Source of the DNA: a virus
Reading direction: 5' to 3' (one strand)
Virus record (IMG/VR): IMGVR_UViG_3300034198_005941
Coordinates: 1-25,771 of that record
Length of the DNA: 25,771 nucleotides
In this document: piece after piece, positions 60-25,771 of the stretch
How positions within the stretch are numbered: position 1 is the stretch's first letter
How the letters are laid out: each line of letters opens with the position of its first letter
Made by a program: the position numbers and the translations under genes
The notes under the pieces: model-generated
What the model was told of the DNA's origin: nothing
Databases searched by the model: none
The model's input: only the letters and a program-made list of their open reading frames with translations

Positions 60-2612
60 TCAAGAAAAGAAATCATCTAATGATGATGTTTTCTCTGTCT
101 TCCATCCAATACAATCAAGAATAATCTTGAGAGGATCAAGAAACGATTTCTCAAACTGAGTCTGATAATCAATATATTGTACCAAATCAAACTCTTGTGG
201 GATCACTTGTTGGAATGATATCACATTACTTTGAATTGGATTCGGTTCTTTGAGATAGATAAACTTGATCTTCTCTCCCTCATTGATCTTGGTATATTTC
301 TTGGTCAGTTTGTTCTTTTCAAGATGATAGTTATATAGAATGGAACCTCTAACATGAATTGGTGTACCCTTAGAAAACATACCAGACTTCTTATCTGTAT
401 ATTGTTCAATACCATTCACACCACGGGGAAATGCAATATCAGCAGGATCAAGCATTTCAAAATCTTTTCTAAACTTTTCAATAAAATTTATCATATCATT
501 CTCTGTACCATTGAGAATAACATCAATAGATTCCGACAACTTATCACGACATGCTGTGGGTGTAGATGACTTGATCATCTCAAGACCCATCACTTTTACT
601 TTAGGCTTAACATACTCTACACCTTCATTATTATACACATTAAGAATATAACGCTTTTTGGCTGTCCAAATACCTGTGTCAGCCAATGCTTCACGTTTCA
701 TCATCATTTTTTGTTGGTAGGCATTAGTATACTTAGCAAGATCGCTATAAGACCTGTCAATAAATGGTTGTATTTTAGTTTCACAAACCTTATCCAAGAA
801 CTGGATGATTTCTCTAGTTCCAGTATTTGGATTCTTTTCAATAATAGTTCTGCCCACCAATTCATCAAGAGAGAGATAAATTGAGTCTGTATCTGATGCA
901 ATTACATAGTCCTTATCTGTATTTCCTAACAACTTATTTAGATATTCGTTAAGTCTTTTTTCAATCCAACGAATAGCTAACTGACCAGCTGTTGTGATTG
1001 CTGATGCTTGACGAATATCAAAGAAACGGAAAAACTGATTGCCTAGTGCACCATAAGCTGAGTTTAGACATACTTTCTTGGCTAGTTGAAGATTATTATA
1101 TCTTGCTATTAATTTTTCAATCTCAATTCTCTTGAGTGAATCTGTTTCTTTCTCTAGATCCTTCTTTGCTTGAATTGCTTTCTTCTTATACACAGACCGA
1201 TCATTATACATATCTTCCATCATCTTAGCAAGAAAGCCTTGCTCTTTTGTACGGAAGAATTGACCATTTGGAGTCAGCGTACATGATTCATTAATGAGTC
1301 TGGAAGTGTCTATATGAGTCATTAATAGTTCATCAATTGTGATACTACAAGAGATAAGATTCCTCATAACATCTGTATACTCTTCAGGCTCGATCAACAT
1401 TTCTGGTGAAATATTAAACTGCATGATAAGATGTGGATACAGACTATTCAAGTCAAACGATGCAACCCAATTATGTTTACCGACTTGTGGATCTTTGACA
1501 TATGCTCCAATGTATGCGGAATCTTTGCTATGTCTCTCAAGTGGAGGAATAACAATGTCCATTTTCTTGAGATGATTATAGATCAGAGCATCCCACATTC
1601 TTGTTTGCTGAAATACATCTTCATAGTTTGTTCTAGAGTCATAAGCCAGAGTCAATGCTAGATCAATAAGTTTTAACTTATCATCTAGTTTGTCAACAAG
1701 TTCAACGTCTCTGATATTATATTCAATGAACTTCTGATAGTTATCACGATATAGTGTATGAAGATTGCCATATTCTTCATATGACATTTTGCGTTCATTC
1801 AATTCAACATGACAGATAGCGTCCAACTTGTATGATTCTTGTGAAGCACCACCAGGAGAAAACTTCTTATACAATTCAATATAATCAAGAACTGCAATAC
1901 CTAATGGTACATATGTTTTCTGTTCACGACCCATGATATTAACAATACGTTCATTCAATGTATTCCATGGTGACAATCTCTTTGCAAAGTCTTCACCCAA
2001 GAGTTTTGTAATGCGATTTACCAGATATGGAATATCAAAAAACTTGACATTCCAGCCAGTGATGATATCGGGATAATTACCTGTCCATTCATCAATAAAT
2101 CGTTTGATGAGATCAATTTCATCAGAGCATCGGACATAACGCACATCATCACGGCTGTTGTTAAATTCACCACAACCAAAGACAACGAATCTGTCTTGTG
2201 TCTTCATAGTAATTGCTGTGATAGGTTCAAAAGCAGTAGAAGGCTCAGGGAAACCATTCTCTGAGCCAACCTCAATATCAATATTACAGATTGTGATATG
2301 ATCTCTATCCCAGTCTACATCATCTGGATGTTGTTCTGAGATAAAGGCATATTCATACTTTTGCATTCCATAGATTTTGAAATTCTCTACGGACTCATAT
2401 TGCCCAACAAAATTCCGACAATCACGAATATTACCAGGAGCAATATCGGATACATATTCACCTCGGATTGTACGAAACTTTGTTGGCTTCTGTGATGTTA
2501 CGAATAGTGTAGGATTATAATCAATCTTCTGTTTAATCTTTTTACCGTTTTGAACACCTCTGAATAGAATACGGGAACCATATACTTGAACATTTGTGTA
2601 AAACGATTTCAT
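60..2612 (-). CDS. 43: DNA polymerase, family B (T4 gp43-like)
   Basis: Replicative DNA polymerase with 3'-5' proofreading, 850 residues (T4 gp43 is about 900). The exonuclease motifs are visible: Exo I IDIEV with D112 and E114, Exo II GWNVKFFDIPY with D193, and Exo III YNIRDVELVD with D302. The polymerase motifs follow: motif A FDLNSLYP with D387, motif B KKVCLNSAYG near 512-521, motif C SDTDS with D574 and D576, and a KKRY motif further on. The last residues, SLDDFFS, look like the short C-terminal peptide by which such polymerases bind the sliding clamp (inferred). The start has AGGAG seven bases upstream. The gene follows the 103-residue ORF by eight bases. In T4 it follows regA directly; here about 16 kb separate them. 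Confidence 0.98.
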   Translation of the reverse strand: MKSFYTNVQVYGSRILFRGVQNGKKIKQKIDYNPTLFVTSQKPTKFRTIRGEYVSDIAPGNIRDCRNFVGQYESVENFKIYGMQKYEYAFISEQHPDDVDWDRDHITICNIDIEVGSENGFPEPSTAFEPITAITMKTQDRFVVFGCGEFNNSRDDVRYVRCSDEIDLIKRFIDEWTGNYPDIITGWNVKFFDIPYLVNRITKLLGEDFAKRLSPWNTLNERIVNIMGREQKTYVPLGIAVLDYIELYKKFSPGGASQESYKLDAICHVELNERKMSYEEYGNLHTLYRDNYQKFIEYNIRDVELVDKLDDKLKLIDLALTLAYDSRTNYEDVFQQTRMWDALIYNHLKKMDIVIPPLERHSKDSAYIGAYVKDPQVGKHNWVASFDLNSLYPHLIMQFNISPEMLIEPEEYTDVMRNLISCSITIDELLMTHIDTSRLINESCTLTPNGQFFRTKEQGFLAKMMEDMYNDRSVYKKKAIQAKKDLEKETDSLKRIEIEKLIARYNNLQLAKKVCLNSAYGALGNQFFRFFDIRQASAITTAGQLAIRWIEKRLNEYLNKLLGNTDKDYVIASDTDSIYLSLDELVGRTIIEKNPNTGTREIIQFLDKVCETKIQPFIDRSYSDLAKYTNAYQQKMMMKREALADTGIWTAKKRYILNVYNNEGVEYVKPKVKVMGLEMIKSSTPTACRDKLSESIDVILNGTENDMINFIEKFRKDFEMLDPADIAFPRGVNGIEQYTDKKSGMFSKGTPIHVRGSILYNYHLEKNKLTKKYTKINEGEKIKFIYLKEPNPIQSNVISFQQVIPQEFDLVQYIDYQTQFEKSFLDPLKIILDCIGWKTEKTSSLDDFFS

Positions 2613-6396: not shown

Positions 6397-6399
6397 ATT

Positions 6400-6933
6400 C
6401 TATTCCTTATACCAGTACCACACATCTTGTGGAACAACATTGATAGAACGAACAACTTGACTTGCAAAATGTACTACAGCATTATGTACATCTTGTATGG
6501 TATTAAAGTCATGTCCACAGAACAATCCACCACTCTTGAGTTTTGGCCAATAGTTCTGACAATCTTTAAGTACCTGTTCATATGTATGTAGACCATCAAC
6601 AAAAATAAAATCTATACTTTGATCTTCAAACATACTTACAGCATCATCAGATGTTTTGCGAACATGAACGAATCTATTACCAAAAACACCTGTTCGTTCT
6701 GTCATAATAGACATAACACGTTCACGGTCATTTACTTCAGATCCATACCAATCATTATATGTAATATATGGATCAACACCATATAAAACAGAATTTGGCA
6801 GAGAATTTAACAGATGAACACTTGTTGTGCCATAATCAACACCAATTTCAATACCAACTAGATTGCTTCTTCCCAGGAGAAGAGAAGGGATTCCTTCTCC
6901 TGGCAACCAACCAAGTGCTTCATATTGTGTCAT
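6400..6933 (-). CDS. SAM-dependent methyltransferase (Methyltransf_24-like), copy 2
   Basis: 177 residues. Motif I is VGIEIGVDYGTTS, followed by YGVDPYITYNDW, FIFVDGLHTYEQ, NYWPKLKSGGLFCGHDF and a C-terminal DVWYWY. All of these align with copy 1 at 3138-3704, so the two are paralogs; the N-termini differ. It starts inside the stop of the RmlB-like gene (ATGA overlap) and ends four bases before the C-methyltransferase. It is therefore sandwiched between two sugar-nucleotide enzymes, which makes O- or N-methylation of the same deoxysugar plausible but unproven. Confidence 0.91.
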   Translation of the reverse strand: MTQYEALGWLPGEGIPSLLLGRSNLVGIEIGVDYGTTSVHLLNSLPNSVLYGVDPYITYNDWYGSEVNDRERVMSIMTERTGVFGNRFVHVRKTSDDAVSMFEDQSIDFIFVDGLHTYEQVLKDCQNYWPKLKSGGLFCGHDFNTIQDVHNAVVHFASQVVRSINVVPQDVWYWYKE

Positions 6934-7967: not shown

Positions 7968-7979
7968 TATAATACCTCT

Positions 7980-11386: not shown

Positions 11387-11388
11387 AA

Positions 11389-11907
11389 TTACCTCGTATA
11401 CCAAAACCATGTATCATTTGCTACACTAATAGGTGTACCGATTTTCTTTTCTCTTCTAAACTTATTGAGTAATTCTTTTACATGTGTTGCTCCATGTTCG
11501 TTACCACAGAAGATTCCATTAGGTTCAACTGTATCATAATACTTATGAAGGTTATTATACAGATCACTTTGTCCATGAATACAAACAATGTCTGCTTTGG
11601 ATGGTGCTTGTTCTAATGAGAATTTGCTTTCATATTTCATGTTTTGTTTGAGGACATCTTCATATTCAGGATTCTCTTTAGCATATGAAATAACTCCATA
11701 GATCATCTTGATCTTTTTCTTAGTGTCATTTGCTAATAACATAAAAGCATTTTCACCTTTCATGACACCAATATCTAATACAATAAGATCATCTTTCTTT
11801 TGTCTAGCGATGTATGGTGAGATACCATGAGCAACAAGATTACTTGGTGGCCACATTCCCATTTCTTGCATTTGTTTGATAGTGAATAAATCAGGATCAA
11901 GATTCAT
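11389..11907 (-). CDS. Divergent Methyltransf_24-like protein, copy 3
   Basis: 172 residues. IVLDIGVMKGENAFMLL is a recognisable SAM motif I. The C-terminal part (VEPNGIFCGNEHGAT, then VANDTWFWY) lines up with GGLFCGHDF and DVWYWY of the two other copies. The middle is changed: IDGLHxY is replaced by IVCIHGQSDLY, the GVDPY..DW region is missing, and the HD of GHD is NE. This looks like a distant paralog that may have lost metal binding or changed substrate. AGGA precedes the start and the gene ends two bases before the epimerase gene. Confidence 0.82.
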   Translation of the reverse strand: MNLDPDLFTIKQMQEMGMWPPSNLVAHGISPYIARQKKDDLIVLDIGVMKGENAFMLLANDTKKKIKMIYGVISYAKENPEYEDVLKQNMKYESKFSLEQAPSKADIVCIHGQSDLYNNLHKYYDTVEPNGIFCGNEHGATHVKELLNKFRREKKIGTPISVANDTWFWYTR

Positions 11908-11917
11908 ATTTTTTTCC

Positions 11918-12841
11918 TTACACAGAATGATAAAATATCACATTGTCATTATTTGTGCCCATAATCTTATCTTTTAATGCTGGCACACGATCCCATTGAT
12001 GAACGATAGCATACTTGATGCCTTTATCGTTTACAACAGAACCATCATCTAGGATCTTTGGTTGTATATCTTCATAGTTCATCATGTATTCTTTCATGCC
12101 CTTTGAATCTTGAGCATACTTACCTAGATCACCAGAACCAGCTTTGACGGCTTCAAGTGTTGTGCCTAAATTGATTGCCCATGAATCTGTAGCATATGTG
12201 AATTGAGTATCTTTTTTGATCACTGGCAAATCAAGAATAAAATTATACACAGCCTGATCTACAATCTGAATTGGTCGACCAAGACTTAATTGAAAAATCA
12301 TGAGCATCATACTCTTGACATGTGTATATGACCCAGCAATAACACCAACATTGAAGATATAGTTCTCTTTGAGTTTATTGTGAAAATATCCACCAAATGA
12401 TTGAAATAGATTTGTGTTACCCCAAGGTTCATTCTTATAACGCATACCTTCTGATGCAGCCACAAGGTCATGCATCCTCATATTTTCTTCTAACCAATCA
12501 CTTGGATTTGTCTGAAAGATAACATCTCGTGTATCAGTAACAATTACATGAGAATATAATTCTTTAGTTTTCTCTAGATAATCCCAAATGTAAAAAAATC
12601 GTTCTACATGTGGAGGTAGTCCAGACTTTGCTTCTACACCACCTGACTCCGTTTTAGTACCATAAAGAGACAATTGTACACCAAGAGATGTAAGTTTGTC
12701 AATAGTTTCTTTATTCATGTTTGTTCCTACAAGAACAACATCACCTTTGAATTCAGATTTCTTGATTGAATTTACCCAATACTGAAGTTCATTCCAAGAA
12801 TAGTTTGTAGCACCACCAATAATCAAATCTTTCATAGCCAT
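11918..12841 (-). CDS. Probable GT-A fold glycosyltransferase
   Basis: 307 residues. VIVTDTRDVIFQTNP (D103, D106) is a typical donor-binding DxD strand of GT-A enzymes. It is followed by FNVGVIAG (163-170) and VDQAVYN (194-200), the usual acceptor-side blocks, and the C-terminal VHQWDRVPALK has the late histidine found in many such enzymes. Family and sugar are unknown. The start at 12841 has GGAGG nine bases upstream; an ATG two codons later would fit the ribosome binding site less well. It overlaps the GT2 gene by ten bases. Confidence 0.85.
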   Translation of the reverse strand: MAMKDLIIGGATNYSWNELQYWVNSIKKSEFKGDVVLVGTNMNKETIDKLTSLGVQLSLYGTKTESGGVEAKSGLPPHVERFFYIWDYLEKTKELYSHVIVTDTRDVIFQTNPSDWLEENMRMHDLVAASEGMRYKNEPWGNTNLFQSFGGYFHNKLKENYIFNVGVIAGSYTHVKSMMLMIFQLSLGRPIQIVDQAVYNFILDLPVIKKDTQFTYATDSWAINLGTTLEAVKAGSGDLGKYAQDSKGMKEYMMNYEDIQPKILDDGSVVNDKGIKYAIVHQWDRVPALKDKIMGTNNDNVIFYHSV

Positions 12842-13581
12842 GGATATTTGCCTCCGTGTATATTCTTAATCATTTCATTACCTTTCTTGAAGAACTCCAT
12901 ATCACCACCATATGCTTTTTCCATATCTGGTAGATTGTAGTTTAATGTATGAAGTCCTGTTGTGTCATATCGTGTACCTGGATTGTCTTTAATAATCGTA
13001 AAGAATCTGCGATCACCACCCCAACCCCAATGCCATATTTGACATACGTTGATTAGAAAATCTCTCTTGAAACAATATGAAGATGTGTCAACAAGATGTT
13101 GTGGCTTATCTGGGTATGTAAACCAGATTGGATATCTACCAATACTTTCACAGCAATCATCGTCTAGATATACATCATTCACATATACCTTTCGGAGTGA
13201 ATGTGCCCATGACAAATGTTTATCTTCAATTAGTTCAACAAGACTTTTGATATGATTTTTATCCCACCAATTATCTTCATCCAAAAATAGAACATAATCT
13301 TCATTTACTAAGTGTGGATATGCAGCATAGATTCTGTGTCCATACATGCCATGTGCACCGGCATTGATTGGTGCACATGTTACTTTGATATGATCATTAT
13401 TTTCAATACCAGAATATGCCAAGAATGTCACATTATCATAGAACTCTGGACCATCAGCAACGATTAGATGTTTGATATTTTTGTATGTTTGATCCCTAAC
13501 AGAATTAACTGCTCTAGTTAGGGATTTGCGGCCAACAGACGGTGTAATAACAACTACAGACTTTTCAATCACAATTTTCAT
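12832..13581 (-). CDS. Family 2 glycosyltransferase (GT2)
   Basis: 249 residues. The N-terminus VVVITPSVGRKSLTRAVNSV followed by DQTYKNIKHLIVADG is the canonical GT2 beginning, and LFLDEDNWW (D101-E-D103) is the DxD site. GT2 enzymes transfer sugars from UDP-, GDP- or dTDP-donors with inversion. No transmembrane anchor is seen. AGGAG lies six bases before the ATG and overlaps the stop of the endolysin gene, so the glycan island begins immediately after the lysis gene on the transcribed strand. Confidence 0.92.
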   Translation of the reverse strand: MKIVIEKSVVVITPSVGRKSLTRAVNSVRDQTYKNIKHLIVADGPEFYDNVTFLAYSGIENNDHIKVTCAPINAGAHGMYGHRIYAAYPHLVNEDYVLFLDEDNWWDKNHIKSLVELIEDKHLSWAHSLRKVYVNDVYLDDDCCESIGRYPIWFTYPDKPQHLVDTSSYCFKRDFLINVCQIWHWGWGGDRRFFTIIKDNPGTRYDTTGLHTLNYNLPDMEKAYGGDMEFFKKGNEMIKNIHGGKYPWL

Positions 13582-13590
13582 TGTAACTCC

Positions 13591-14916
13591 TTATGCTAAT
13601 CTAGCAAATTGGAAATGCATCCAGTCAAAGTCTCTTTCAATACCTAGAGAGATTGCACCTTCGTCATACACAAATTCCCAAAACTTGTCATATACAGGCT
13701 TAGATAAAGAAGCTTCTTTTCTATTCATATTGAGTTGATTTCTGTCTGGATCAATGTCAACTGCAATACCCCATGAATGCATTGACCAAGAAGAACCACC
13801 TTTCATTCTTCTAACATTCAAACAACCACCAAAATAGTGGAGACGTAGATCAACAATCTTTTCGTATCCATAGTGTTCTAGTGTACGATTCCAAATTCTT
13901 TCCATAGGATCTTTGACTAGTTTATGACAAGAATATTCAGTAAGCTTTGTCTTAGTATCCCATGCAAGAACCATAGTAAATGGTACTTTACACTTGACTT
14001 GATTTTCACCAACATCACCATAATAACTAATACATTGTGCTTGTGTTGGCCATGTTGGCTTGACTAGCTTAGCTGGAGGAATTTTAACTTTTGCTGGTTC
14101 TTCTTTTACACATTCAGGAAAGATTTTAGTCCAATCGCCAGTAGATGCTTTGGCAAATTCTTTTCTTGCATCATCAGGTCGATCTTTCAAACCAAACCAT
14201 TGTCCTTGTGTTGCACGTCTCATAGCTTCAAATGCTGGAGCTTTACCAGACTTTACTGCTTCATATGGTGCTGGATATTTTTTCTTAAGATATTCATGCA
14301 TAGCAATCGTTTGTTGTTCAACACTTGATGTTCCATTCTTACCACCACCATTCAGATGAAAAGCAATCTTGGCATCAACACCACGTCTAATTACATCACG
14401 AACATCTAGTGTATTTGTTTGATAGTATCCATAGTCTGCACCATCAGAACCATATTGTCTCACATTAGCATTGTTGCTTACTTGATTGTATGCTTCTGAA
14501 TATGCTTCTTTCTTTGAAAATCCTGTTTCTGTTTGACCGATACCACGAATGAATGCGAGTTGATTAATATCAATATCAGCAAGTGATTTGGCAAATGTAA
14601 CAGGAAACAACTTTTCTGTTGTATCACGCCATGTTGTTACAAGTTGTGATTGATATACTTCTCTGGCATGTTGTGTTTGTGGTCCTTCTAGACCATCAAT
14701 ATTACCAACTTCAATATTCTTTGTGTTATAAAGATATTGTTCACCTGCCAAAAAGACTCTATCATCTTTCCAACCTGTGATATCAATTTTGTTTTTTGTG
14801 AGAAGATTTTTAAGTGAATCAACTGATACAGGATCACTAACTTTACCATTATATAACTTCTTATCAATTAGTAACTTTTGGAGTTCCATTTGAACCCAGA
14901 ACTTTAAGTCTTGCAT
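13591..14916 (-). CDS. Two-domain endolysin: lysozyme-like domain plus M15 peptidase
   Basis: 441 residues, long for a phage endolysin. The C-terminal domain has SMHSWGIAVDID and DWMHFQ, giving the zinc ligands H380, D387 and H434 of M15 (VanY/L-Ala-D-Glu type) peptidases that cut peptidoglycan cross-bridge peptides. The middle (about 110-260) looks lysozyme/transglycosylase-like: GIGQTETGFS offers E130 as catalytic acid and DYGYYQTN resembles the following substrate strand. Residues 72-89 (NIDGLEGPQT) resemble a peptidoglycan-binding repeat. A proline/lysine linker lies near 270-290. No signal peptide is seen, so release would need a holin or other help. GGAG lies seven bases upstream. A TATAAT at 14945-14950 has no matching -35. 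Confidence 0.88.
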   Translation of the reverse strand: MQDLKFWVQMELQKLLIDKKLYNGKVSDPVSVDSLKNLLTKNKIDITGWKDDRVFLAGEQYLYNTKNIEVGNIDGLEGPQTQHAREVYQSQLVTTWRDTTEKLFPVTFAKSLADIDINQLAFIRGIGQTETGFSKKEAYSEAYNQVSNNANVRQYGSDGADYGYYQTNTLDVRDVIRRGVDAKIAFHLNGGGKNGTSSVEQQTIAMHEYLKKKYPAPYEAVKSGKAPAFEAMRRATQGQWFGLKDRPDDARKEFAKASTGDWTKIFPECVKEEPAKVKIPPAKLVKPTWPTQAQCISYYGDVGENQVKCKVPFTMVLAWDTKTKLTEYSCHKLVKDPMERIWNRTLEHYGYEKIVDLRLHYFGGCLNVRRMKGGSSWSMHSWGIAVDIDPDRNQLNMNRKEASLSKPVYDKFWEFVYDEGAISLGIERDFDWMHFQFARLA

Positions 14917-14957
14917 AGTATCACTCCATTAATAGATAACATACATTATATATACAT

Positions 14958-14987
14958 AAAAAAAAGCAGGGGTAATTAGCCCCTGCC
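14958..14987 (-). terminator. Rho-independent terminator after hsp20
   Basis: On the minus strand a perfect 7-bp stem GCAGGGG/CCCCTGC encloses the loop CTAATTA and is followed by eight T. It lies 11 bases after the Hsp20 stop, so it should end the late Hsp20 message before the endolysin gene. Confidence 0.93.
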
Positions 14988-14998
14988 AATACTGTTTT

Positions 14999-15472
14999 TT
15001 AGTCTTTCAAAAAAGTTTTCTTGTCTTCTTTCTTTTCAACAATATCAATCTTCTTTGGTTTTTTGCTTTCTGGAATAAAACGTTCTAAGAAAATCTTGAG
15101 CATACCGTTGATTAGATCGGCATTTTTGATTTCAACTGTGTCTGCAAGTGTAAACTTGCGAGTAAAAGCACGATCTGCAATACCTTTGAAGATGTAATCT
15201 GGAGTTTCATCCGTTGTTATTTGTCCTTTGACAGTTAATACGCCATCCTCTAGAACAAGTTCAATGTCTTGTTTACCAAAACCTGCAACTGCGATTTCAA
15301 TCACATATGTGTTGTCGCCAGTTTTTTTTATGTTGTATGGAGGATACATTGGCACTTTTGGTAGAGATTCACTTAAATCTCCAAGCCTTTTGACAATATC
15401 GTCAAAACCAATCGCACCTTTTGATAGTTGTGAAAATCCGAATGGATCTGTAGTGTTCCATGATGGTAGCAT
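14999..15472 (-). CDS. hsp20: Small heat-shock protein Hsp20
   Basis: 157 residues with an alpha-crystallin domain at about 43-135: YPPYNIKKTGDNTYVIEIAV, then AGFGKQDIELVLEDGVLTVKG, and the closing A-D-L-x-NGMLKI motif. It is an ATP-independent chaperone that holds unfolded proteins. Hsp20 is a common gene of marine T4-like phages, where a role in virion scaffolding or assembly has been proposed but not shown. The tail is rich in K, E and D. I chose ATG 15472 because GGAG lies seven bases upstream; the frame stays open to 15595 but that extension crosses the promoter and hairpin. It has its own late promoter and terminator, so it is a single-gene unit. Confidence 0.93.
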   Translation of the reverse strand: MLPSWNTTDPFGFSQLSKGAIGFDDIVKRLGDLSESLPKVPMYPPYNIKKTGDNTYVIEIAVAGFGKQDIELVLEDGVLTVKGQITTDETPDYIFKGIADRAFTRKFTLADTVEIKNADLINGMLKIFLERFIPESKKPKKIDIVEKKEDKKTFLKD

Positions 15473-15530
15473 GTCATTACTCCTATGTTTAGCGAGTTTA
15501 ATTATATGTCTTCCCATAATTGGCAAAGAC

Positions 15531-15561
15531 GTGTTGGGAACGCAATACCTTATCCCAACAC
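15531..15561 (-). other. 9-bp inverted repeat in the hsp20 leader
   Basis: On the minus strand GTGTTGGGA and TCCCAACAC pair perfectly around a 13-base loop. The likely start site of the late promoter falls within the first arm, so the mRNA would begin with most of this hairpin. It ends 58 bases before the ATG and leaves the ribosome binding site free. A 5'-end stabilising role is possible. Confidence 0.7.
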
Positions 15562-15564
15562 TGC

Positions 15565-15572
15565 TATTTATA
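15565..15572 (-). promoter_or_regulatory. T4-type late promoter for hsp20
   Basis: The minus strand reads TATAAATA, the exact T4 late promoter element recognised by the gp55-type sigma factor with the gp45 clamp and gp33. It lies about 93 bases before the Hsp20 ATG, and transcription would start some six bases downstream. It is the only exact match I found on this strand. Confidence 0.85.
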
Positions 15573-15595
15573 ATACATTTTTGAAGACTTGTCAA

Positions 15596-16873: not shown

Positions 16874-18181
16874 TTATCTAGATATTTCTTCCCAATCCAT
16901 TGAAGCAAGGATCTTAGCAGATGCATTATCAGCTGCTGTGACAAGAGTAAGTTCAAATGGAGTCGAAGTTATTGAATTACGTTCTAATTGAAATTTAAAT
17001 AGAGCTTCTTTAAGAATATCTGTAGGGTTTGAACCTTGAGCAGATCCATTAAGAAATCCAGATGCTAGTGATCTACCACCTGAAAAGCTTGTTCCTGATA
17101 TATTATATTCAACAGAAGAATCTGTACCTGCGCTTACCCATGACCCACCTGTTGTTGTTCCAGAAGCTATAACTTTCCAATTATAGTATGTGTTATTTGT
17201 TATTCCTAATATAGACAATGCAGTAAGAATTACAATTGCATCAAGTTTGTTTGGTGATGTTTTCAATCTGATAGAAATTACAGGATAATAAGTTCCAGCA
17301 GTTGCAAGATTTGTTGGACTTGTAATTGGTGTTTCTACTGCTTGTTGTGAACCTCTAAGTTCGTAACCACCTTCAGAAATAACAGTTGAGCATACTTGTT
17401 TCATCAAACTTGTGTTACCAGTAGTTCCTGTATTCGTTATTTCATATCTCAGTGGAAGAGATGCAGTTGTGATATATGTTGATGTAATATAGTTAGCATG
17501 ATGAAAAGAATGACAGTGTATGATTTGACCATCAATAACAAATCCACATCTTACAGAGCCAAGTCCCAACCATTCTAAATCAATATGTTGAATTTGTGCT
17601 TTAGATATATCTAGTGTTTTTCTTGATGGACCAGTACCATCAAGTGGATCTATATTCCAATCAGATTGAGCAACACGAGTTTCTGTCATAGTGCCTGTAA
17701 CAGAAGTTCTTTCTACAAGAGATAATGTATTGTCACTTAACTCAAGATATATTCCATTGTTTGCTCCATAATAACCAACTCTCTGTCTAAGATTTGTTTG
17801 TCCTGGTGCCATTACAAATGTGTTGAGAACTGATAAACTTTTTCCTGGCTGATAAGCAAATACTTTTGTTGTTTCTCTAATTATTTCAGCATTGTTGGCT
17901 GTAGATACTGATAAATTAATCAAACCTTCATTAGAAGAAAATGTGATTGTTGTGTTGCTTGTATTTGAAGAAATCCAAAGACCATTGTCTCTATATCTAT
18001 GTGAAGAATCAAAAAGAGTCAAAGGTGTAGACACTCTTGCTCTACCAAAAGCGTCTACTGCCATACCAGAAGGATTAGCAGGACCAACAAGATTGCCATA
18101 TTGGTCAGAGAGCATTACAACTTCAAATATAGTAGTTTCTTGTGGTAAATATTGATGTGTATCTTTTCTAAACTGTGCCAT
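16874..18181 (-). CDS. Virion structural protein of the marine-phage type
   Basis: 435 residues, rich in S, T, N and beta-strand, with no enzyme motif. VDAFGRARVSTPLTLFDSSH (about 42-61) and the block SDWNIDPLDGTGPSRKTLD followed by FVIDGQIIHCHSFHHAN match sequences that recur in proteins of aquatic T4-like phages annotated as structural, probably surface or appendage components. Which part of the virion it forms is not known. The start overlaps the RegA stop by one base (TAATG). A late-promoter-like ACTAAATA lies 34-41 bases upstream inside regA, which would suit late expression. Confidence 0.82.
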   Translation of the reverse strand: MAQFRKDTHQYLPQETTIFEVVMLSDQYGNLVGPANPSGMAVDAFGRARVSTPLTLFDSSHRYRDNGLWISSNTSNTTITFSSNEGLINLSVSTANNAEIIRETTKVFAYQPGKSLSVLNTFVMAPGQTNLRQRVGYYGANNGIYLELSDNTLSLVERTSVTGTMTETRVAQSDWNIDPLDGTGPSRKTLDISKAQIQHIDLEWLGLGSVRCGFVIDGQIIHCHSFHHANYITSTYITTASLPLRYEITNTGTTGNTSLMKQVCSTVISEGGYELRGSQQAVETPITSPTNLATAGTYYPVISIRLKTSPNKLDAIVILTALSILGITNNTYYNWKVIASGTTTGGSWVSAGTDSSVEYNISGTSFSGGRSLASGFLNGSAQGSNPTDILKEALFKFQLERNSITSTPFELTLVTAADNASAKILASMDWEEISR

Positions 18182-18588
18182 TATGGTTCTCTTTGTTTTG
18201 ACTTGCCTATAGTATATTTAGTGACTAGAGACCATTCTGGTTTTTCTTTATGCGAAATAATTTTTACTTGACTAATAGGAGCAACTGGAGATTTGCTTTT
18301 TTCTTCATCTACTAAATCAAGAAGTTCCCAATCATGAAGAAGATTGGCAATTGTATTACGTCGTCCTTTGTCCTCTTCAGAAAAATCAGATCGTTTACCA
18401 TCTAACAAAAACATTTCTTTAAAGTGAACAATGTAATATTTTCCTTGTTTATGTAAAATGTGACAAGATTGATATAATGTCTTGTCTTTTCTTGAGGCAA
18501 CACCAATTCTAGACAATGTTTCTCTGACTTTTAGAAAATCATCTTTTTCATTTAATCTCACCTCTATCAGATCGCTTATGTTTAGCAT
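18181..18588 (-). CDS. regA: RegA translational repressor of early genes
   Basis: 135 residues (T4 RegA is 122). DDFLKVRETLSRIGVASRKDKTLYQSC, HILHKQGKYYIVHFKEMF, then LLHDWELLDLV and a late KYTIG follow T4 RegA closely from memory. RegA binds early mRNAs near the start codon and blocks ribosome loading, including its own message and those of genes 44, 45 and 62. The start has AAGGTGG five bases upstream and overlaps the gp62 gene by 41 bases. The order 45-44-62-regA is that of T4. Confidence 0.97.
   Translation of the reverse strand: MLNISDLIEVRLNEKDDFLKVRETLSRIGVASRKDKTLYQSCHILHKQGKYYIVHFKEMFLLDGKRSDFSEEDKGRRNTIANLLHDWELLDLVDEEKSKSPVAPISQVKIISHKEKPEWSLVTKYTIGKSKQREP
18215..18222 (-). promoter_or_regulatory. 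Possible late promoter inside regA
   Basis: The minus strand reads ACTAAATA, six of eight matches to the T4 late element TATAAATA. It lies 34-41 bases before the start of the virion protein gene. Useful because a structural gene follows an early gene without a gap, but AT-rich coding sequence can give such matches by chance. Confidence 0.3.
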
Positions 18589-18967
18589 TCAATCCACCTT
18601 TATCTAATTTTTTCTTAATTTCAGCAATCTGGTCATCAGATAAAACTGTCAAGGCTTCTTTGGCTTTCTCGTTAGAGTATTTGAAATATTCTTTTACAGC
18701 CTCAAGATTTTCTACAGTCTCTCTCTTATGCCACTTCTGAAAGGGTCTCTTATAGGACCTTATACTATTTAGATAATAATCATATTGTAGTTTTCTGTCA
18801 ATATTTGGTGCAAGATTCATGGCATTGGCTTGCATAATGCAGTCATAATGAAAGCTTAAAGCACGATTGACAACGAAAGGGACATAATCCCTCTCATTGT
18901 CAGTAGAAATGACTGGCTTCTTAGTTTGAAGAATAGATGGTATAATTTCTTTGAATAGATCAGTCAC
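18548..18967 (-). CDS. 62: Clamp loader small subunit (gp62-like), GTG start
   Basis: 139 residues. The core DYVPFVVNRALSFHYDCIMQ, then ANAMN and YKRPFQKWHKRE, corresponds to the gp62 pattern (T4: YSKFMVENALSQFPEC...YAMN...GKRYGKWAK). The C-terminal helix ALTVLSDDQIAEIKKKL also fits. With gp44 it loads the gp45 clamp onto DNA. No ATG is available near the natural N-terminus. I chose GTG at 18967, giving VTDLFKEIIPSI, with GGAAC ten bases upstream; the frame is open further to a TTG at 19030 but lacks a ribosome binding site there. It overlaps the chimeric ORF by eight bases and regA by 41. Confidence 0.88.
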   Translation of the reverse strand: MTDLFKEIIPSILQTKKPVISTDNERDYVPFVVNRALSFHYDCIMQANAMNLAPNIDRKLQYDYYLNSIRSYKRPFQKWHKRETVENLEAVKEYFKYSNEKAKEALTVLSDDQIAEIKKKLDKGGLNAKHKRSDRGEIK

Positions 18968-19193
18968 TGAATGATGTTCCTTTAGCTTTGTTAATCCGAT
19001 CTTCTGCGATTGAAAAATACTTAGAATCAACTTCTATGCCAACAAAATTTCGTTTTGTATTTACTTCATAACTCATTCCTCTAAACAATTCGGTTATTAA
19101 CTTTTCGCCCAACATACCTTTTGATTTATTGTTCAGCCACACATATCCCTGAAGTGGAGTATTTTTCCATGGATCAAATATATTTATCGACAT
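18960..19193 (-). CDS. Chimeric small ORF: endonuclease-like N-terminus joined to a DNA-methylase-like C-terminus
   Basis: 77 residues with an intact frame, GGAG seven bases before the ATG and a position between genes 44 and 62. Residues 1-47 (FDPWKNTPLQGYVWLNN, KGMLGEKLITELF) look like the start of a phage restriction-endonuclease-like protein. Residues 48-77 (NFVGIEVDSKYFSIAEDRI) are the characteristic last strand and helix of N6/N4 DNA methyltransferases. Neither catalytic domain is present. The simplest reading is an in-frame deletion that fused two former neighbours and left a translated remnant, perhaps kept because gp62 translation is coupled to it. It could also be a small gene with a new role. 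Confidence 0.65.
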   Translation of the reverse strand: MSINIFDPWKNTPLQGYVWLNNKSKGMLGEKLITELFRGMSYEVNTKRNFVGIEVDSKYFSIAEDRINKAKGTSFSD

Positions 19194-19205: not shown

Positions 19206-20144
19206 TCATTTCACTTCACAGTCAACCATGATCTCTGTTAAACATGCTACCAGATTAATCTCTTGATCTGGCACAAAAGCACTTTGATATTGATATTTGG
19301 CTATGATGACAACGGCTTGTGGTATGCTTTCTGGCTTCATATATTCATAAAGACCATCATAAATCTTTCTGTAGATTCTAGCTGTGTCAATATCAGAATT
19401 TGTCACAACCCATTTACGCATCTCTCCGAAGTTCTTTTCTTTAAGATACTTAATGAGTTCCGTCATGTTCTTAAGATCGGAAACTTGACTCAGAACAGAT
19501 GCATCAATATTACCAGAACTTGAGTACCTTTGCAACTCATTTAATGTACGCCGATAATCAGGAAAAAACTTCTCTACCACTTTAGCAACAACTGCCTTGT
19601 CAAATGTAACATTTTCTTTAGTCAAAATGTCACACAGTCTCTTAAAGAATTGTGCAGCCATCTTGGGCTTTTCGCCATTGACCAAAGTAAAGTCAATGAC
19701 CGAACATCTAGAATGAATCGCATCAATCAACTTAGACTTAAAGTTACAGGTAAAGATAAACGAACAGTTGGAAGAAAACTCTTCAATAGCACCACGCAAG
19801 GCTGCTTGTGCTTCTGGTGTAATATAATCAGCTTCATCTAGAATGATAACTTTTTGACTTCCACCAAATGACATGGTAGAAGCATAACCACGAATCTTTG
19901 TTCTGAGTGTATCAATACCTCGTTCTTCAGATGAGTTGATGAAAATATAGTCTAATCCAATCTCTTCACACATAGCAATAGCAGCCGTGGTTTTACCCAC
20001 GCCTGCTGTGCCGGTCAACATGAGATTTGGAATAGTCTTGTTATTTACATACTCTTGAAAAACTTTCTTTAGTCTATCTGGTAAGATACAGTCTGCGACT
20101 TTCTTTGGTCTGTTTTTTTCAGTCCAGAGAAATTCTTTAGACAT
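19206..20144 (-). CDS. 44: Clamp loader large subunit (gp44-like AAA+ ATPase)
   Basis: 312 residues, close to T4 gp44 (319). Walker A GTAGVGKT is at 45-52, Walker B ILDEAD at 101-106, the sensor-1 region FTCNFK at 131-136, and the SRC motif with its arginine finger at 145-147. These are the features of the replication factor C/gp44 family. The ATPase opens and closes the gp45 clamp at primer-template junctions together with gp62. GGAGG lies eight to nine bases upstream. It starts eight bases inside the end of the DsbA-like gene. Confidence 0.98.
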   Translation of the reverse strand: MSKEFLWTEKNRPKKVADCILPDRLKKVFQEYVNNKTIPNLMLTGTAGVGKTTAAIAMCEEIGLDYIFINSSEERGIDTLRTKIRGYASTMSFGGSQKVIILDEADYITPEAQAALRGAIEEFSSNCSFIFTCNFKSKLIDAIHSRCSVIDFTLVNGEKPKMAAQFFKRLCDILTKENVTFDKAVVAKVVEKFFPDYRRTLNELQRYSSSGNIDASVLSQVSDLKNMTELIKYLKEKNFGEMRKWVVTNSDIDTARIYRKIYDGLYEYMKPESIPQAVVIIAKYQYQSAFVPDQEINLVACLTEIMVDCEVK

Positions 20145-20439
20145 TCTTACTACCTCCGTTGATCACGATTGTATAGAATTCTTCAAATGTACGATTTTCT
20201 TCTGATTCGGCATTAAAGTTGGCTTTGTGATGTGTCTTGCCAAGTTTGCGAATTAGCTTCTTATCAAGACCCAACTTTTCTACGGCTTTTTCAATTGCTT
20301 CTTTTTGAAGTTCTCGTTCGGCTGCAACCCGTGTCAAGGAATCATCTAGCTCCTTGACAACACCCTTGAGATACTCTTTGTCCGCTTGTGACAAAGAATT
20401 AACAGAGACAAATTGCTTGTTATGACCAATTAGCGACAT
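20137..20439 (-). CDS. Late-transcription dsDNA-binding protein, DsbA-like
   Basis: 100 residues, mostly helical and charged. The second half, EKLGLDKKLIRKLGKTHHK followed by NAESEENRTFEEFYTIV, lines up with the C-terminal half of T4 DsbA as I remember it (DELGVDGKMFNRL..., YHKDN, FEAETEEVVELYDTVF). DsbA binds double-stranded DNA near late promoters. T4 has a different gene (rpbA) at this place between 45 and 44, so RpbA-like is the alternative. I chose ATG 20439, overlapping the gp45 stop as TGATG with GGAG eight bases upstream; GTG 20442 is possible. Confidence 0.75.
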   Translation of the reverse strand: MSLIGHNKQFVSVNSLSQADKEYLKGVVKELDDSLTRVAAERELQKEAIEKAVEKLGLDKKLIRKLGKTHHKANFNAESEENRTFEEFYTIVINGGSKNV

Positions 20440-21092
20440 CACTTAGACTCCACAACAATGAAATACTTCAAGTTCTTTGTCTTAGATACAAATGTAGCAA
20501 ACTTACCTAGCTTTACCTCAACAGAATAATCATCAGGAATCATCTTGATGTTTTCTGTCTTGAATGTAGCAATCATATCTTCACCAGCATGATCACCAAT
20601 TCGGATTGATGCATAGTTGGACAGATTGTTAGCCTTATCATGCACCATAACACTCAACTCACCAGACTTTACAACAAAAGAAAGATGTGGCAAGTTATTC
20701 ATAGATGCAAGCCGAAGGAGACGATTGACAATCGTTTGTGATAGATCAAACTTAACTTCTGGATCAGTAAGTACCAATTCTTTGTTTGGTGGTGAAATGA
20801 TCAATTCTGGATTACATGAACTGTACTTGACAGTCATCATATCATCTTTCATCATGACAAGATTATCTGAAAAGTCCATATCAGGTGCATTCAATGCTAG
20901 TGTGTTTCCCAGAAACTGATTTAGATCATAGATACCAAACTGACATGGGAAAGTATCTTCAAGTGTTGCTTCAACCAAAACACTCTTTTCTGGCGACATT
21001 GTACGCTGTGTTGCACCAGACCGAATAACGACACCGGAATTAATTGAAGCAAAGTTCTTTAGAACAGTTAGTGTTTGTTCCGAAAGTTTCAT
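20439..21092 (-). CDS. 45: Sliding clamp (gp45-like)
   Basis: 217 residues (T4 gp45 is 228). The start MKLSEQTLTVLKNFASINSG is nearly that of T4 (MKLSKDTTALLKNFATINSG), and IYDLNQFLG, VNRLLRLA and late strands with IRIGDHAGED also correspond. It forms a trimeric ring that tethers gp43 to DNA and, in T4, activates late transcription with gp33 and gp55. This connects directly with the late promoter seen before hsp20. AAGGATG precedes the ATG by about ten bases. Confidence 0.97.
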   Translation of the reverse strand: MKLSEQTLTVLKNFASINSGVVIRSGATQRTMSPEKSVLVEATLEDTFPCQFGIYDLNQFLGNTLALNAPDMDFSDNLVMMKDDMMTVKYSSCNPELIISPPNKELVLTDPEVKFDLSQTIVNRLLRLASMNNLPHLSFVVKSGELSVMVHDKANNLSNYASIRIGDHAGEDMIATFKTENIKMIPDDYSVEVKLGKFATFVSKTKNLKYFIVVESK

Positions 21093-22699: not shown

Positions 22700-22927
22700 T
22701 CAGGCTGCTCGGATATTACCTGCAAACCGATAGAACATTGTCCTCTTACCATCTACCTTGCGATAATTGCTGTAGATTTGACGACCTTCAATATTACGAA
22801 GGTCGCTCACTCGCTTATATACGTTTGACAAAGGCACTTCAGCCATTTCAGCAAGGTGTGCTGGCGTAATGCCTGTACCCTTAGTATTACGGCGAAGATG
22901 CTTTGCAACACGAGTTAGCTGGGACAT
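22700..22927 (-). CDS. Small winged-helix DNA-binding protein
   Basis: 75 residues. ITPAHLAEMAEVPLSNVYKR (about 20-39) is a helix-turn-helix, followed by VSDLRNIEGRQIYSNYRKVD and KRTMFYRFA, which read as the wing. It likely binds DNA and regulates transcription; its target is unknown. I chose ATG 22927 with AAAGGAG eight bases upstream; an in-frame start at 22963 lies in the structured leader. It is followed by a strong terminator and preceded by a leader with interleaved inverted repeats, so it may be separately controlled. Confidence 0.87.
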   Translation of the reverse strand: MSQLTRVAKHLRRNTKGTGITPAHLAEMAEVPLSNVYKRVSDLRNIEGRQIYSNYRKVDGKRTMFYRFAGNIRAA

Positions 22928-22948
22928 ATAGTTCTCCTTTACGAAAAT

Positions 22949-23001
22949 GGGCATCTCTTTCACTTATATGTATCCGTCAACCGATGCCCTTTAGTGGACG
23001 G
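22949..23001 (-). promoter_or_regulatory. Leader with interleaved inverted repeats (possible pseudoknot or switch)
   Basis: On the minus strand the order is CCGTC (23001-22997), GGGCATC (22989-22983), GACGG (22978-22974), GATGCCC (22955-22949). The first pairs with the third and the second with the fourth. The helices interleave, so they form either an H-type pseudoknot or mutually exclusive structures, 20-odd bases before the winged-helix ATG. Confidence 0.5.
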
Positions 23002-23036: not shown

Positions 23037-24218
23037 TTAGAATTGAACGTCACCAGTTGCTGCACTTTCAGCGGGTGCTGGTGCAGGATTGATTGTCTCG
23101 TCCAATTTCTTATACAAATCCATGAATGAGTTTTTGGTATCTGTATCAAATCGGTTGAGGCACAACTGAATTGCCTTCTCACGATTCCGATTGAAGATAG
23201 AATATGCTTCACAGATATGCACAAGACGCCGTGTGGAAATGATTTCTGACACTGCACCTTCAAGGAAAGACTTACGAATAACTTCAGCCCAATCAACCAG
23301 ACGTTTAACAAAGTCGGCATCTTCCACACCAACAGACTGAAGCACGTTGGTAAGGATCTTAGACTCGACCTTAGACTGAGGATATTCTTGTTCCATAGTG
23401 ATAGAGAACCGCTCAAGGAATGCTTCGTTCATCACATTGGTACCGATGAACCGACCATCATCTGAGCCCTTGCCCTTGGTGTTAGCAGTAGCAATGATGT
23501 TAAAACCAGAAGTTGGTGTGATCAACTTGTTAATCTTTTTGAGGAAGATGGGTTTACCTTCCAGAACAGGCTGAAGGCACATAAGCTTGTTAGAGCCAAG
23601 GTCGACCTCATCAAGCAACAGAATAGCACCACGTTCCATCGCATGGATAACTGGACCATTCTGCCACACAGTACGACCATCGACCAGACGGAAACCACCA
23701 AGGAGATCGTCTTCGTCCGTTTCAATCGTAATATTGACACGGATGCACTCACGGCGTTCCGCAGCACATACTTGTTCTACCATCATTGTCTTGCCATTGC
23801 CAGACAAGCCAGTGACATACACTGGATAGAACCGATTTGACTTGATAATCGACCTAACATCATTAAAATGACCGAAAGGTACATAACCAGAAGCTTTGGG
23901 TGGAATCAAAGATACTTGATCAGGTGTGTCCAACTTGACTGCAGCCATAGCCATATCAACAGTAGCCAACTCTGAGGATGTTTCAACGACAGGAACTGGC
24001 TTAGCAACGGACTTAGCCGTCTTAGGAAGCAAATTAGTAGGTAGAGCATACATACCACGACCAGCACGATGGTCGGGATCGTTGGTCAACCACGTTGGAT
24101 AATCAATACCAGTTTCCTCACATACCTCGACCACTTGCTGGCGAGAGATGGTCTTAATAGCGCCAAACTTGGTGATGGCAGCATTGACGAAAACCGAGCG
24201 ATCAATCTTCTTAGGCAT
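23037..24218 (-). CDS. MoxR/CobS-like AAA+ ATPase
   Basis: 393 residues. The N-terminal 60 residues resemble a small helix-turn-helix domain (ISRQQVVEVCEETG...). The AAA+ domain has Walker A GLSGNGKT (137-144), Walker B LLLDEVD (200-206), a sensor IIATANTKG and the arginine-finger region NEAFLERF. This is the MoxR/CobS group, often annotated CobS in cyanophages. Its usual partner is a VWA protein, and one is encoded directly upstream. Together they may form an ATP-driven chelatase-like or protein-remodelling machine. No CobN-type catalytic subunit is in the window, so a vitamin B12 role is not supported. GGAG lies eight bases upstream, and a sigma70-like promoter lies about 27-55 bases upstream. 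Confidence 0.9.
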   Translation of the reverse strand: MPKKIDRSVFVNAAITKFGAIKTISRQQVVEVCEETGIDYPTWLTNDPDHRAGRGMYALPTNLLPKTAKSVAKPVPVVETSSELATVDMAMAAVKLDTPDQVSLIPPKASGYVPFGHFNDVRSIIKSNRFYPVYVTGLSGNGKTMMVEQVCAAERRECIRVNITIETDEDDLLGGFRLVDGRTVWQNGPVIHAMERGAILLLDEVDLGSNKLMCLQPVLEGKPIFLKKINKLITPTSGFNIIATANTKGKGSDDGRFIGTNVMNEAFLERFSITMEQEYPQSKVESKILTNVLQSVGVEDADFVKRLVDWAEVIRKSFLEGAVSEIISTRRLVHICEAYSIFNRNREKAIQLCLNRFDTDTKNSFMDLYKKLDETINPAPAPAESAATGDVQF

Positions 24219-24244
24219 TCTGTGTCTCCGTTGATTATGGTAGT

Positions 24245-24273
24245 ATATTACATGGATTAGGTGGCAAAGTCAA
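24245..24273 (-). promoter_or_regulatory. Sigma70-like promoter for the AAA+ gene
   Basis: On the minus strand TTGACT (24273-24268) and TAATAT (24250-24245) are separated by exactly 17 bases. The predicted start is near 24238, about 20 bases before the ATG and just before its ribosome binding site. This is the form of an early promoter read by host RNA polymerase. Confidence 0.7.
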
Positions 24274-24277
24274 TAAC

Positions 24278-24311
24278 AACCAGAGAAAAATTTTTGCTGT
24301 TTTCTCTGGTT
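24278..24311. other. 12-bp perfect inverted repeat between the VWA and AAA+ genes
   Basis: AACCAGAGAAAA and TTTTCTCTGGTT pair perfectly around a ten-base loop, 20 bases after the VWA gene stop and five bases upstream of the promoter -35. No T run follows on the minus strand, so it is not a standard terminator. A smaller inverted repeat, GAGAAA/TTTCTC (24314-24329), adjoins it. Confidence 0.65.
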
Positions 24312-24330
24312 TTGAGAAAGAATTTTCTCT

Positions 24331-25771
24331 TTAAAATGAAGTCGTTGCAACTTGCTGCATAAATTTGGAAAGCATGACCCGATTGATAGTCTTACGTTCA
24401 CTGAACTTCATGAATGTACGAGCAATAGCACCTTTGGTCATAGAACTATTCACTTGCAGATCGTCATTCACATTTTTATTACGACGGGTACGAATGATGT
24501 AATACTGATCGTAACCAGCCGAGTTTACACCAACATAATCATTTTCTTTCCATGACTTTTGAATTTCAGGATTGTTGACAACCGAGTCATCAATTATTCC
24601 TGACCTAGACAAACTATTAAGATCAGAACTTTCATACAGAAAGAAGCCAATGAGATTGCAATCAGTCCGATCTTTGAGAATACGCAAGTAAACTGACGTG
24701 GCTGAATAATGGTAATTGTTGTCAGTCCAATATGTCTTTTTGGTCACATTGTCACGAACAATATACTTGTTACCACCTTTCTTCCATTGATAACCAGTGC
24801 TATTCAATCCAGAGTAATCCGAAGCACCATCAGTGAGGAAAATAGTATTGACGATTTGGACTTTATTCTTCACACGGAAATCGTTCACAAGTTGGTCAGC
24901 ACAAAGGATTGTTTGATTGAGTGGCGTGGAATCCATCCGATCACAAGAAACCCAACGAAAAACAGCACACATCCACAAAAGATTGTATGCTTTGTTGAGT
25001 GTATTGATATCCATACGTGATGACAAAATGTTCCGAATCTTGAAAGCATTAATACCAAAGTGCATGTTAGATTTAACTGAATGATCAATATGATTGTTAT
25101 TATTATTGTATGCCGTGCGGAACAAGTACACTTCAAATGGAATGTTGACACGTTTGCAGAACATTGTCAGCGAAAACAATTGCTTCATAGTGTTCATGAG
25201 ATTGGAAGTCATAGAACTAGACCAATCAAGGAACATGACAAAGCCATGGTTCTTGCCTGTAGGAACAGTAGTAACTTTCTTGAAGATATCGTCCGAGAAC
25301 TTGTATTTGGTCAACTTGTTGGTATCAATAACGCCAGTTTTGGCTGTAGCAATACGTGCATAAGCATCAGCCGACTTACGCATTTCAAATTCTTTGATCA
25401 TGTACGAAATGGTATCGTTTTCTTGACGTTGCCAAGTTTTGCGCTTAGTACCCTCGACACTCAAAGAATATTCTTTGAACTGCTTTTCCATTTCTGGAAG
25501 GACAACAGTATAATCATCTACAACATGCTTGAGATTAAACTTAGGCACATCCAGATAGATATAATTTACATCAGAATCATTCACAATTTTGGACAATGAC
25601 TTTTCCGATGCTTCATAAGTTTCCGACGTGGGTGCTTCATCTGAAGATGTGGAACTTGTTTCATCTTTATCAAGACCGTCCGTCATGTTGTCGGATTCTT
25701 CATCCGTTTCACCATCAACGGCCGTTTCATCATCACCGTCAGATTCCATATCACCGTCAGATTCCATATCA
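24331..25771 (-). CDS. VWA-domain protein, CobT-like (N-terminus cut by window edge)
   Basis: About 480 residues are visible and the frame is still open at the window end, so the true start is outside. The visible N-terminal part is strongly acidic (D, E, S, T), including two copies of MESDGD. The C-terminal half is a von Willebrand A domain with the metal site DWSSSMTS (codons near 25204-25227) and a later FLTDGAS. CobT and other VWA partners of MoxR/CobS ATPases have this layout: acidic linker plus metal-ion-dependent adhesion site. It is expected to work with the AAA+ ATPase encoded next. TAA is at 24331. Confidence 0.88.
   Translation of the reverse strand, partial: DMESDGDMESDGDDETAVDGETDEESDNMTDGLDKDETSSTSSDEAPTSETYEASEKSLSKIVNDSDVNYIYLDVPKFNLKHVVDDYTVVLPEMEKQFKEYSLSVEGTKRKTWQRQENDTISYMIKEFEMRKSADAYARIATAKTGVIDTNKLTKYKFSDDIFKKVTTVPTGKNHGFVMFLDWSSSMTSNLMNTMKQLFSLTMFCKRVNIPFEVYLFRTAYNNNNNHIDHSVKSNMHFGINAFKIRNILSSRMDINTLNKAYNLLWMCAVFRWVSCDRMDSTPLNQTILCADQLVNDFRVKNKVQIVNTIFLTDGASDYSGLNSTGYQWKKGGNKYIVRDNVTKKTYWTDNNYHYSATSVYLRILKDRTDCNLIGFFLYESSDLNSLSRSGIIDDSVVNNPEIQKSWKENDYVGVNSAGYDQYYIIRTRRNKNVNDDLQVNSSMTKGAIARTFMKFSERKTINRVMLSKFMQQVATTSF
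25732..25771 (-). repeat. 18-bp in-frame tandem repeat in the acidic region
   Basis: Two identical 18-base units (25750-25767 and 25732-25749), each coding for MESDGD, with the first four bases of a further unit before the window ends. The number of copies cannot be seen. Confidence 0.85.

Follow-up and report, generated by a model that had tools for sequence, protein, structure and literature searches.

A CobS-like ATPase and a VWA protein in the replication module of a T4-like phage fragment: a possible protein-remodelling protease rather than a cobalt chelatase

Viruses have been described to carry the gene pair cobST, and in the available excerpts of that report the label "peptidase" for the second gene, cobT, is called a mistake, and viral CobST is proposed to hijack the CobN of the host (Liu 2021, PMC8651126). 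Further papers, likewise available in excerpts, place cobS among 25 core genes of cyanophages (PMC3037559), and virus surveys count it as a B12 auxiliary metabolic gene and use it as a marker for cyanophages (PMC9983427, PMC2984593). Excerpts of other work report that group 2.2 jumbo phages encode a MoxR protein and a vWA protein with an N-terminal metallopeptidase, for which a role in the virion was proposed (Iyer 2021, PMC7824862), and that p618 of Acidianus two-tailed virus (ATV) is a virion MoxR ATPase whose activity is enhanced by p892, a VWA protein (review PMC4124505). Here, we analyze a pair consisting of a CobS-like AAA+ ATPase and a VWA protein that lies at the far end of IMG/VR virus record IMGVR_UViG_3300034198_005941. 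This record of 25,771 bases, in its whole length referred to as the window, is a fragment of its phage.

The two genes are adjacent open reading frames (ORFs) on the minus strand (Table 1). As the first-pass annotation had described, the ATPase is complete and of the MoxR/CobS type, and the protein beside it has a DxSxS motif as well as an acidic stretch in its first 56 or so residues. A MoxR-clade AAA+ protein with Walker A and Walker B motifs next to a VWA protein with a MIDAS makes this a MoxR-VWA pair. It is in fact the cobS/"peptidase" pair that is already known from cyanophages and Pelagibacter myophages, and the window provides a further member. What the first-pass annotation missed is that the VWA gene is cut, which hides its N-terminal domain, that cyanophages and pelagiphages are known to have the pair among their core features, and that it is situated in the replication module. 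With respect to its function, we see roughly even chances that the pair is one ATP-driven protein machine in which a MoxR ring and a VWA-metallopeptidase remodel, and probably cut, a client, rather than a cobalt chelatase.

The VWA protein of the window matches PHROG 459 ("peptidase") only over profile positions 240-736 of 736, such that about one third of the protein must lie outside the window. Full-length VWA relatives have 703-834 residues. We found 56 full-length VWA ORFs among the relatives, 41 of them distinct, and every one of these 41 proteins carries an HExxH motif near the N-terminus followed later by an ED.R motif. By chance, HExxH appeared in 43 of 8200 composition-shuffled N-termini. 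In the window's own group, the motif is retained in 41/41 proteins, though the mean column identity is only 43%. Among 13 CobT-like proteins of phages or plasmids further removed from the window, 10 have it as well.

An AlphaFold2 (AF2) model of one full-length relative, L007 (mean predicted local distance difference test score, pLDDT, 72.4), has strands at residues 27-30, 38-40 and 45-48, a helix at 56-72 with H65ExxH69, and a further helix at 97-122 with E111. This is followed by a disordered acidic linker (residues 218-295, pLDDT under 50) and then by the VWA fold. Strands, an HExxH helix and then a helix carrying a glutamate are the order of elements expected of a minimal zincin. The N-terminal domain of the relatives thus appears to bear a zinc-metallopeptidase signature and, by motif and modelled element order, would fit a zincin. 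Fold searches with the whole VWA model returned VWA matches throughout and no zincin, but the N-terminal part is barely tested by searches of this kind. In the excerpts of Liu 2021, "peptidase" is dismissed as no more than a labelling error. We reject this remark, since the N-terminal HExxH gives the label a basis.

The following course of events can be envisaged for such a machine. The CobS-like AAA+ protein would form an ATP-driven ring, as expected from its family; hexamer formation and ATP hydrolysis are predicted from its motifs. The VWA partner would dock on this ring and bind a client via the MIDAS metal site, as in other MoxR-VWA systems, and the putative zinc-metallopeptidase domain would be located at the far N-terminus of the VWA protein, across the flexible acidic linker. 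ATP hydrolysis would then remodel the client and probably feed it to the peptidase, where it may be cut or matured. The pair, its motifs, its synteny and the absence of CobN from the sequences searched are shown here, whereas zinc binding, cleavage, the client and the stage of infection are what we infer. As a first guess, the client would be a protein of replication or recombination or else one of the host that hinders that stage, because the pair lies between gp46 and gp45 in the module for these processes, and beside DNA polymerase III alpha in several unrelated phages.

The position of the pair is highly conserved. In tblastn searches of 50,697 phage records, the ATPase was found in 603 and the VWA protein in 463, with equal counts in both searches for records named Synechococcus (365), Cyanophage (61) and Prochlorococcus (24). 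We pooled 80 IMG/VR relatives with four isolates (HTVC008M, Mosig, S-H38, S-PM2). A VWA match precedes cobS in 77 of these 84 loci, the remaining 7 having under 900 bp upstream, and wherever the upstream sequence spans 900 bp or more, the VWA gene is directly upstream of cobS (72/72 loci). Furthermore, gp45 lies downstream of the pair in 51/51 loci with about 6 kb downstream. In the four isolates, the order is VWA, cobS, gp45, gp44, gp62, RegA and gp43 (where the stretch reaches that far), with other genes interspersed, and a gp46/SbcC-like gene precedes the pair, either immediately or at a distance of a few genes.

This constancy also bears on a second explanation, namely that the pair acts in virion assembly, with the MoxR-VWA proteins as a chaperone and the peptidase processing structural proteins. 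Such a role has been proposed for the jumbo phages in the excerpted text of Iyer 2021 (PMC7824862), and it has a precedent in ATV p618/p892 as excerpted from PMC4124505, but the pair is found by gp45 in all 51 loci and not by head or tail genes. The argument from position is not decisive, because the replication module of the window itself holds a gene matching PHROG 1645, "virion structural protein" (E=3.1e-155; 16874-18181, adjoining RegA). On balance, we regard a function in virion assembly as rather unlikely.

We also inspected 16 annotated loci with a related ATPase outside the T4-like phages, from other phages and plasmids. In nine of them, the CobS-like ATPase gene is followed within a few genes by DNA polymerase III alpha; one of these nine, E. 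coli plasmid L242, has no annotated VWA gene. In ICP2, genes for a primase and a DNA polymerase are encountered no more than about 4 kb after the ATPase, and in an IncC plasmid the ATPase is near ssb, bet and an exonuclease, with no VWA protein recognised. The gene order is reversed in the Gordonia, Tsukamurella and CRP-810 loci. The ICP2 ATPase as a scan query gave no matches. In Listeria and Staphylococcus phages, an 846-base gene follows the AAA+ gene (L247 5797-6642 and L250 5837-6682, respectively); it lacks both DxSxS and HExxH and is possibly an unrecognised partner.

The names of the two genes suggest yet another function, in B12 metabolism, where viral CobST would borrow the CobN of the host to make cobalamin, for instance for ribonucleotide reductase. 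This was proposed in PMC8651126 and is also told in PMC2984593, according to the excerpts of both. The AAA+ protein is indeed close to solved CobS (9ujv, E=1e-32), and Synechococcus elongatus matches CobN and not CobS, so that the CobS missing from such a host could come from a cyanophage. However, the first-pass annotation had seen no CobN-like subunit in the window, and we find no PF02514 there either. The search for a CobN partner that it had recommended was also negative in 48 phage records carrying the pair (44 of the 80 IMG/VR relatives and the four isolates), the window being a fragment of its phage.

The hosts of two relatives give the same picture. HTVC008M and Mosig infect Pelagibacter, yet in the Pelagibacter family, to which a genome titled Candidatus Pelagibacter ubique belongs, CobN and the corrin gene CbiC were each found in 0/147 genomes. 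CobS is present in 128 of these genomes (96 over the cut-off) and CobT in 135 (none over the cut-off, most of them full length). Genome completeness aside, it is unlikely that the lack of CobN is a sampling gap. Among 115 Alphaproteobacteria, CobS was found in 90 and PF02514 in 46, and 46 have CobS without PF02514; as magnesium chelatase H also belongs to PF02514, the count for CobN would be too high rather than too low. CobS and CobT are kept without CobN in the Pelagibacter family, and the Caulobacter control genome likewise matches both of them and not CobN. The presence of CobST alone therefore does not indicate that B12 is made. Related pairs are also present in phages of E. coli K-12, Salmonella LT2 and V. 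cholerae, hosts that are not known to use CobN.

With no CobN in the phage records or the genomes of the host family, and no CbiC in the latter, a role in B12 synthesis fits poorly, and we consider it quite improbable. A B12 chelatase was rejected as the principal explanation on the absence of CobN from these records and genomes together with the HExxH domain, which the phage VWA partner has in full-length relatives and CobT lacks in this form. With no chelatase target in either set, we prefer the suggestion of the first-pass annotation that the pair may remodel a protein complex of the phage or of its host. If it is true that the pair is a protein-remodelling protease, inferences on B12 metabolism that are drawn from viral cobS would fall.

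How, then, does the pair relate to genuine CobS and CobT? Against NCBIfam TIGR01650 (CobS), the ATPase scores 89.8 bits and thus stays below the curated cut-off of 558.55. CobS_N (PF12556) is not among the matches of the window ATPase at E<=0.1, whereas SAR11 CobS has it (E=4.2e-13). Similarly, neither CobT (PF06213) nor CobT_C (PF11775) was matched at E<=0.1 by the window VWA protein or four full-length relatives, whereas SAR11 CobT matches both. The more distant phages RHEph10, ICP2 and CRP-810 do match CobT_C. Moreover, the HExxH domain of RHEph10 exceeds the Pfam cut-off for CobT (31.5 vs 26.1 bits) and matches, by hhalign, the N-terminus of the window-type proteins (95%, E=5e-8). Because RHEph10 matches both, the domain looks like one family, though a direct hhalign comparison of the window-type N-terminus with that of CobT is weak (5%), and the link is made only via RHEph10.

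Through RHEph10, we aligned the N-termini of 29 CobT ORFs of alphaproteobacterial and Pelagibacter-family origin; one of these ORFs, which showed HE..H, turned out to be a wrong frame. The glutamate is kept in 28/28 valid N-termini, but both histidines are replaced, the first by Ser, Ala and others, the second by Arg, Lys and others. From these sequences, cellular CobT may be an inactivated cousin of the peptidase seen in the phages; no statement to this effect was found in the literature searched, which comprised open papers only. In a wider and tentative proposal, which we are inclined to doubt, viral "cobST" would be an AAA+-driven zinc protease machine of DNA replication or recombination, CobT would descend from that kind as a dead peptidase, and cellular CobST would keep a second, CobN-free job, as in SAR11, where it stands beside a DnaJ gene without the corrin pathway.

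In three Pelagibacter-family loci (L266, L267, L268), a DnaJ-domain gene adjoins CobS. The conserved CobS-CobT pair of these hosts is also near the genes for shikimate kinase and ribosomal protein L28 and calls for an explanation. SAR11 bacteria are among the most abundant in the sea and keep CobS and CobT without CobN, which makes them a place to look for the function of CobST.

Several observations weigh against a protease that acts on a replication client. The HExxH motif lies beyond the contig end and not in the window, whose nearest full-length VWA relative is 61% identical. No peptidase family was matched by the window-type N-terminus. Furthermore, 3 of the 13 distant relatives (ZY21, BUCTxx99 and the Acinetobacter plasmid) retain the domain but have lost its histidines, which implies that some such pairs work without cutting. 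Together with the loss of the histidines in all valid CobT N-termini, this favors a MoxR-VWA remodeller without proteolysis, in which the HExxH domain would be a structural or a zinc-binding docking domain. Since the window's own group keeps HExxH in every protein at such a low mean identity, we hold this to be quite improbable for the pair at hand.

As to the client, 7 of the 16 distant loci have no DNA polymerase III (the IncC plasmid, ICP2, and the Listeria, Staphylococcus, Gordonia, Tsukamurella and CRP-810 loci, at the last five of which no polymerase was found within the stretch covered). Some of the polymerase III loci may go back to a single inherited module, which makes position weak evidence for the client and suggestive only. 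Finally, the search for CobN in the host family covered the Pelagibacter family, and cyanobacteria do have CobN, as seen in the S. elongatus control.

Table 1. Features of the pair and of the surrounding replication module; positions are those of the window
Feature	Position	Strand	Basis
DNA polymerase gp43 homologue	60..2612	-	PHROG 262, 1063 bits
Clamp loader gp62 and RegA translational repressor homologues	18181..19030	-	PHROG 225 and 242
Clamp loader gp44 homologue	19206..20144	-	PHROG 168, E=2.3e-122
Sliding clamp gp45 homologue, in replication module after the pair	20439..21092	-	PHROG 223, E=1.3e-59
Small helix-turn-helix (HTH)-like gene, 87 residues, directly downstream of the ATPase, possible third member	22700..22963	-	weak B-block_TFIIIC match below cut-off
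CobS-like (MoxR-clade) AAA+ ATPase, 393 residues, complete	23037..24218	-	ORF; PHROG 249, E=2.3e-119; AAA_5 PF07728, E=9.9e-18
Walker B, LLLDEVD, residues 200-206	23601..23621	-	invariant in 37/37 aligned proteins
Walker A, GLSGNGKT, residues 137-144	23787..23810	-	invariant in 37/37 aligned proteins
ATPase N-terminal domain, residues 1-60	24039..24218	-	AF2 model, pLDDT 86-90
VWA (CobT-like) partner, fragment of 479 residues, open at contig end	24331..25770	-	ORF; PHROG 459, E=3.1e-112
MIDAS Asp314 (TDG)	24829..24831	-	42/42 aligned proteins
MIDAS Thr282	24925..24927	-	42/42 aligned proteins
MIDAS DxSxS (DWSSS, fragment residues 182-186)	25213..25227	-	Asp182, Ser184 and Ser186 in 42/42 aligned proteins
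Acidic linker, first ~56 residues of fragment, between missing N-terminal domain and VWA region	25603..25770	-	sequence

The ATPase matches PHROG 249, which is labelled "porphyrin biosynthesis". Besides the two motifs that we take to be Walker A and Walker B, further AAA+ residues are invariant in all 37 aligned ATPases. Its sequence profile, when compared with solved chains, scored 167.6 bits with Midasin (over several stretches), 116.7 with CobS, 49.7 with CbbQ and 46.7 with NorQ; structurally, the AAA+ part fits NorQ/CbbQ. In a tree, the Kyanoviridae-type ATPases, including that of the window, cluster together (98/98), and cellular CobS (99/99) is separate from them; several branches are very long, and of 17 chosen bacterial CobS loci only 8, one of them SAR11, had passed the motif filter.

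In place of CobS_N, the AF2 model of the ATPase has an N-terminal domain with the order helix-strand-helix-helix-strand-strand, as in winged helices, which makes it a candidate, unconfirmed winged helix. The CobS-like ATPases of the Acinetobacter plasmid (L241 3482-4723) and of Pseudomonas phage ZY21 (L246 4533-5756) start with a C..C...H...H stretch that resembles ROS/MucR fingers, with a weak Pfam match below the cut-off. A winged-helix-like N-terminus, and the ROS/MucR-like one of the Acinetobacter relative, would suit contact with nucleic acid.

For the VWA protein, the sequence profile found nothing below E=0.07 among solved chains. The modelled VWA domain of L007 fits the VWA domains of NorD (9qh6_G; Z 15.6, root mean square deviation 4.7 over 240 residues) and Midasin (Z 14.7, root mean square deviation 3.4 over 220 residues).

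The minus-strand genes of the window make up a T4-like replication module with gp43, RegA, gp62, gp44, a DsbA-like regulator, gp45, a deoxynucleotide kinase and a PHROG 1574 protein. The first-pass annotation had noted that the pair is richer in G+C than the rest of the window. This is true of the AAA+ gene (0.453) and also of its small HTH-like neighbor (0.447), but only weakly of the VWA gene (0.384 vs 0.347 to the left of the pair). Recent transfer as the cause was rejected, because gp45 follows the pair in all loci with sufficient sequence and only the composition differs. Between gp43 and RegA (3138-15595), about a dozen genes are inserted, several of them sugar-related. Among them are two paralogues of a PHROG 540 nucleotide-sugar epimerase (6930-7967 and 10352-11410), two PHROG 2675 "DNA methyltransferase" paralogues (3138-3746 and 6400-6933), a glycosyltransferase and an endolysin-like gene.

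Among known systems, the pair most closely resembles the cobST genes of Kyanoviridae cyanophages and pelagiphages (S-PM2, S-H38, HTVC008M, Mosig), with which it shares both genes, their order and the position ahead of gp45. The AAA+ protein is 52-55% identical to those of these isolates, the VWA protein only about 30-35%. Unlike the isolates, most window-type relatives have the small HTH-like gene after the ATPase (57/74 loci for which 3 kb of downstream sequence is available, as opposed to 0/4 isolates). They also lack psbA, which is present in both cyanophage isolates and in 0/22 of the larger IMG/VR relatives; this hints at non-cyanobacterial hosts.

With the CobS-CobT part of cobaltochelatase, the pair has in common an AAA+ protein homologous to CobS and a MIDAS-bearing VWA domain after an acidic linker. 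It differs from it by falling far below the CobS cut-off, by the lack of CobS_N, of CobT and CobT_C matches and of CobN, and by the HExxH that is kept in its relatives. NorQ-NorD and CbbQ, which likewise combine a ring-forming AAA+ protein with a VWA adaptor, give the best structural matches, but the one NorD examined has no HExxH, unlike the phage VWA relatives. The clients of these systems are metalloenzymes.

The remaining counterparts are viral. ATV p618-p892 is likewise a viral MoxR-VWA pair, but with a role in the virion tail (excerpts of PMC4124505), and it is without a peptidase domain according to the excerpts of Iyer 2021 (PMC7824862). The jumbo phage system described in the latter shares the architecture, a MoxR AAA+ protein and a metallopeptidase fused to vWA. 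That report does not tie it to the name cobS, a word with 0 occurrences in the available portion of its text. While the pair itself was previously known, what is new here is the joining of two unlinked literatures, that on viral cobST and that on the MoxR/metallopeptidase-vWA systems of jumbo phages.

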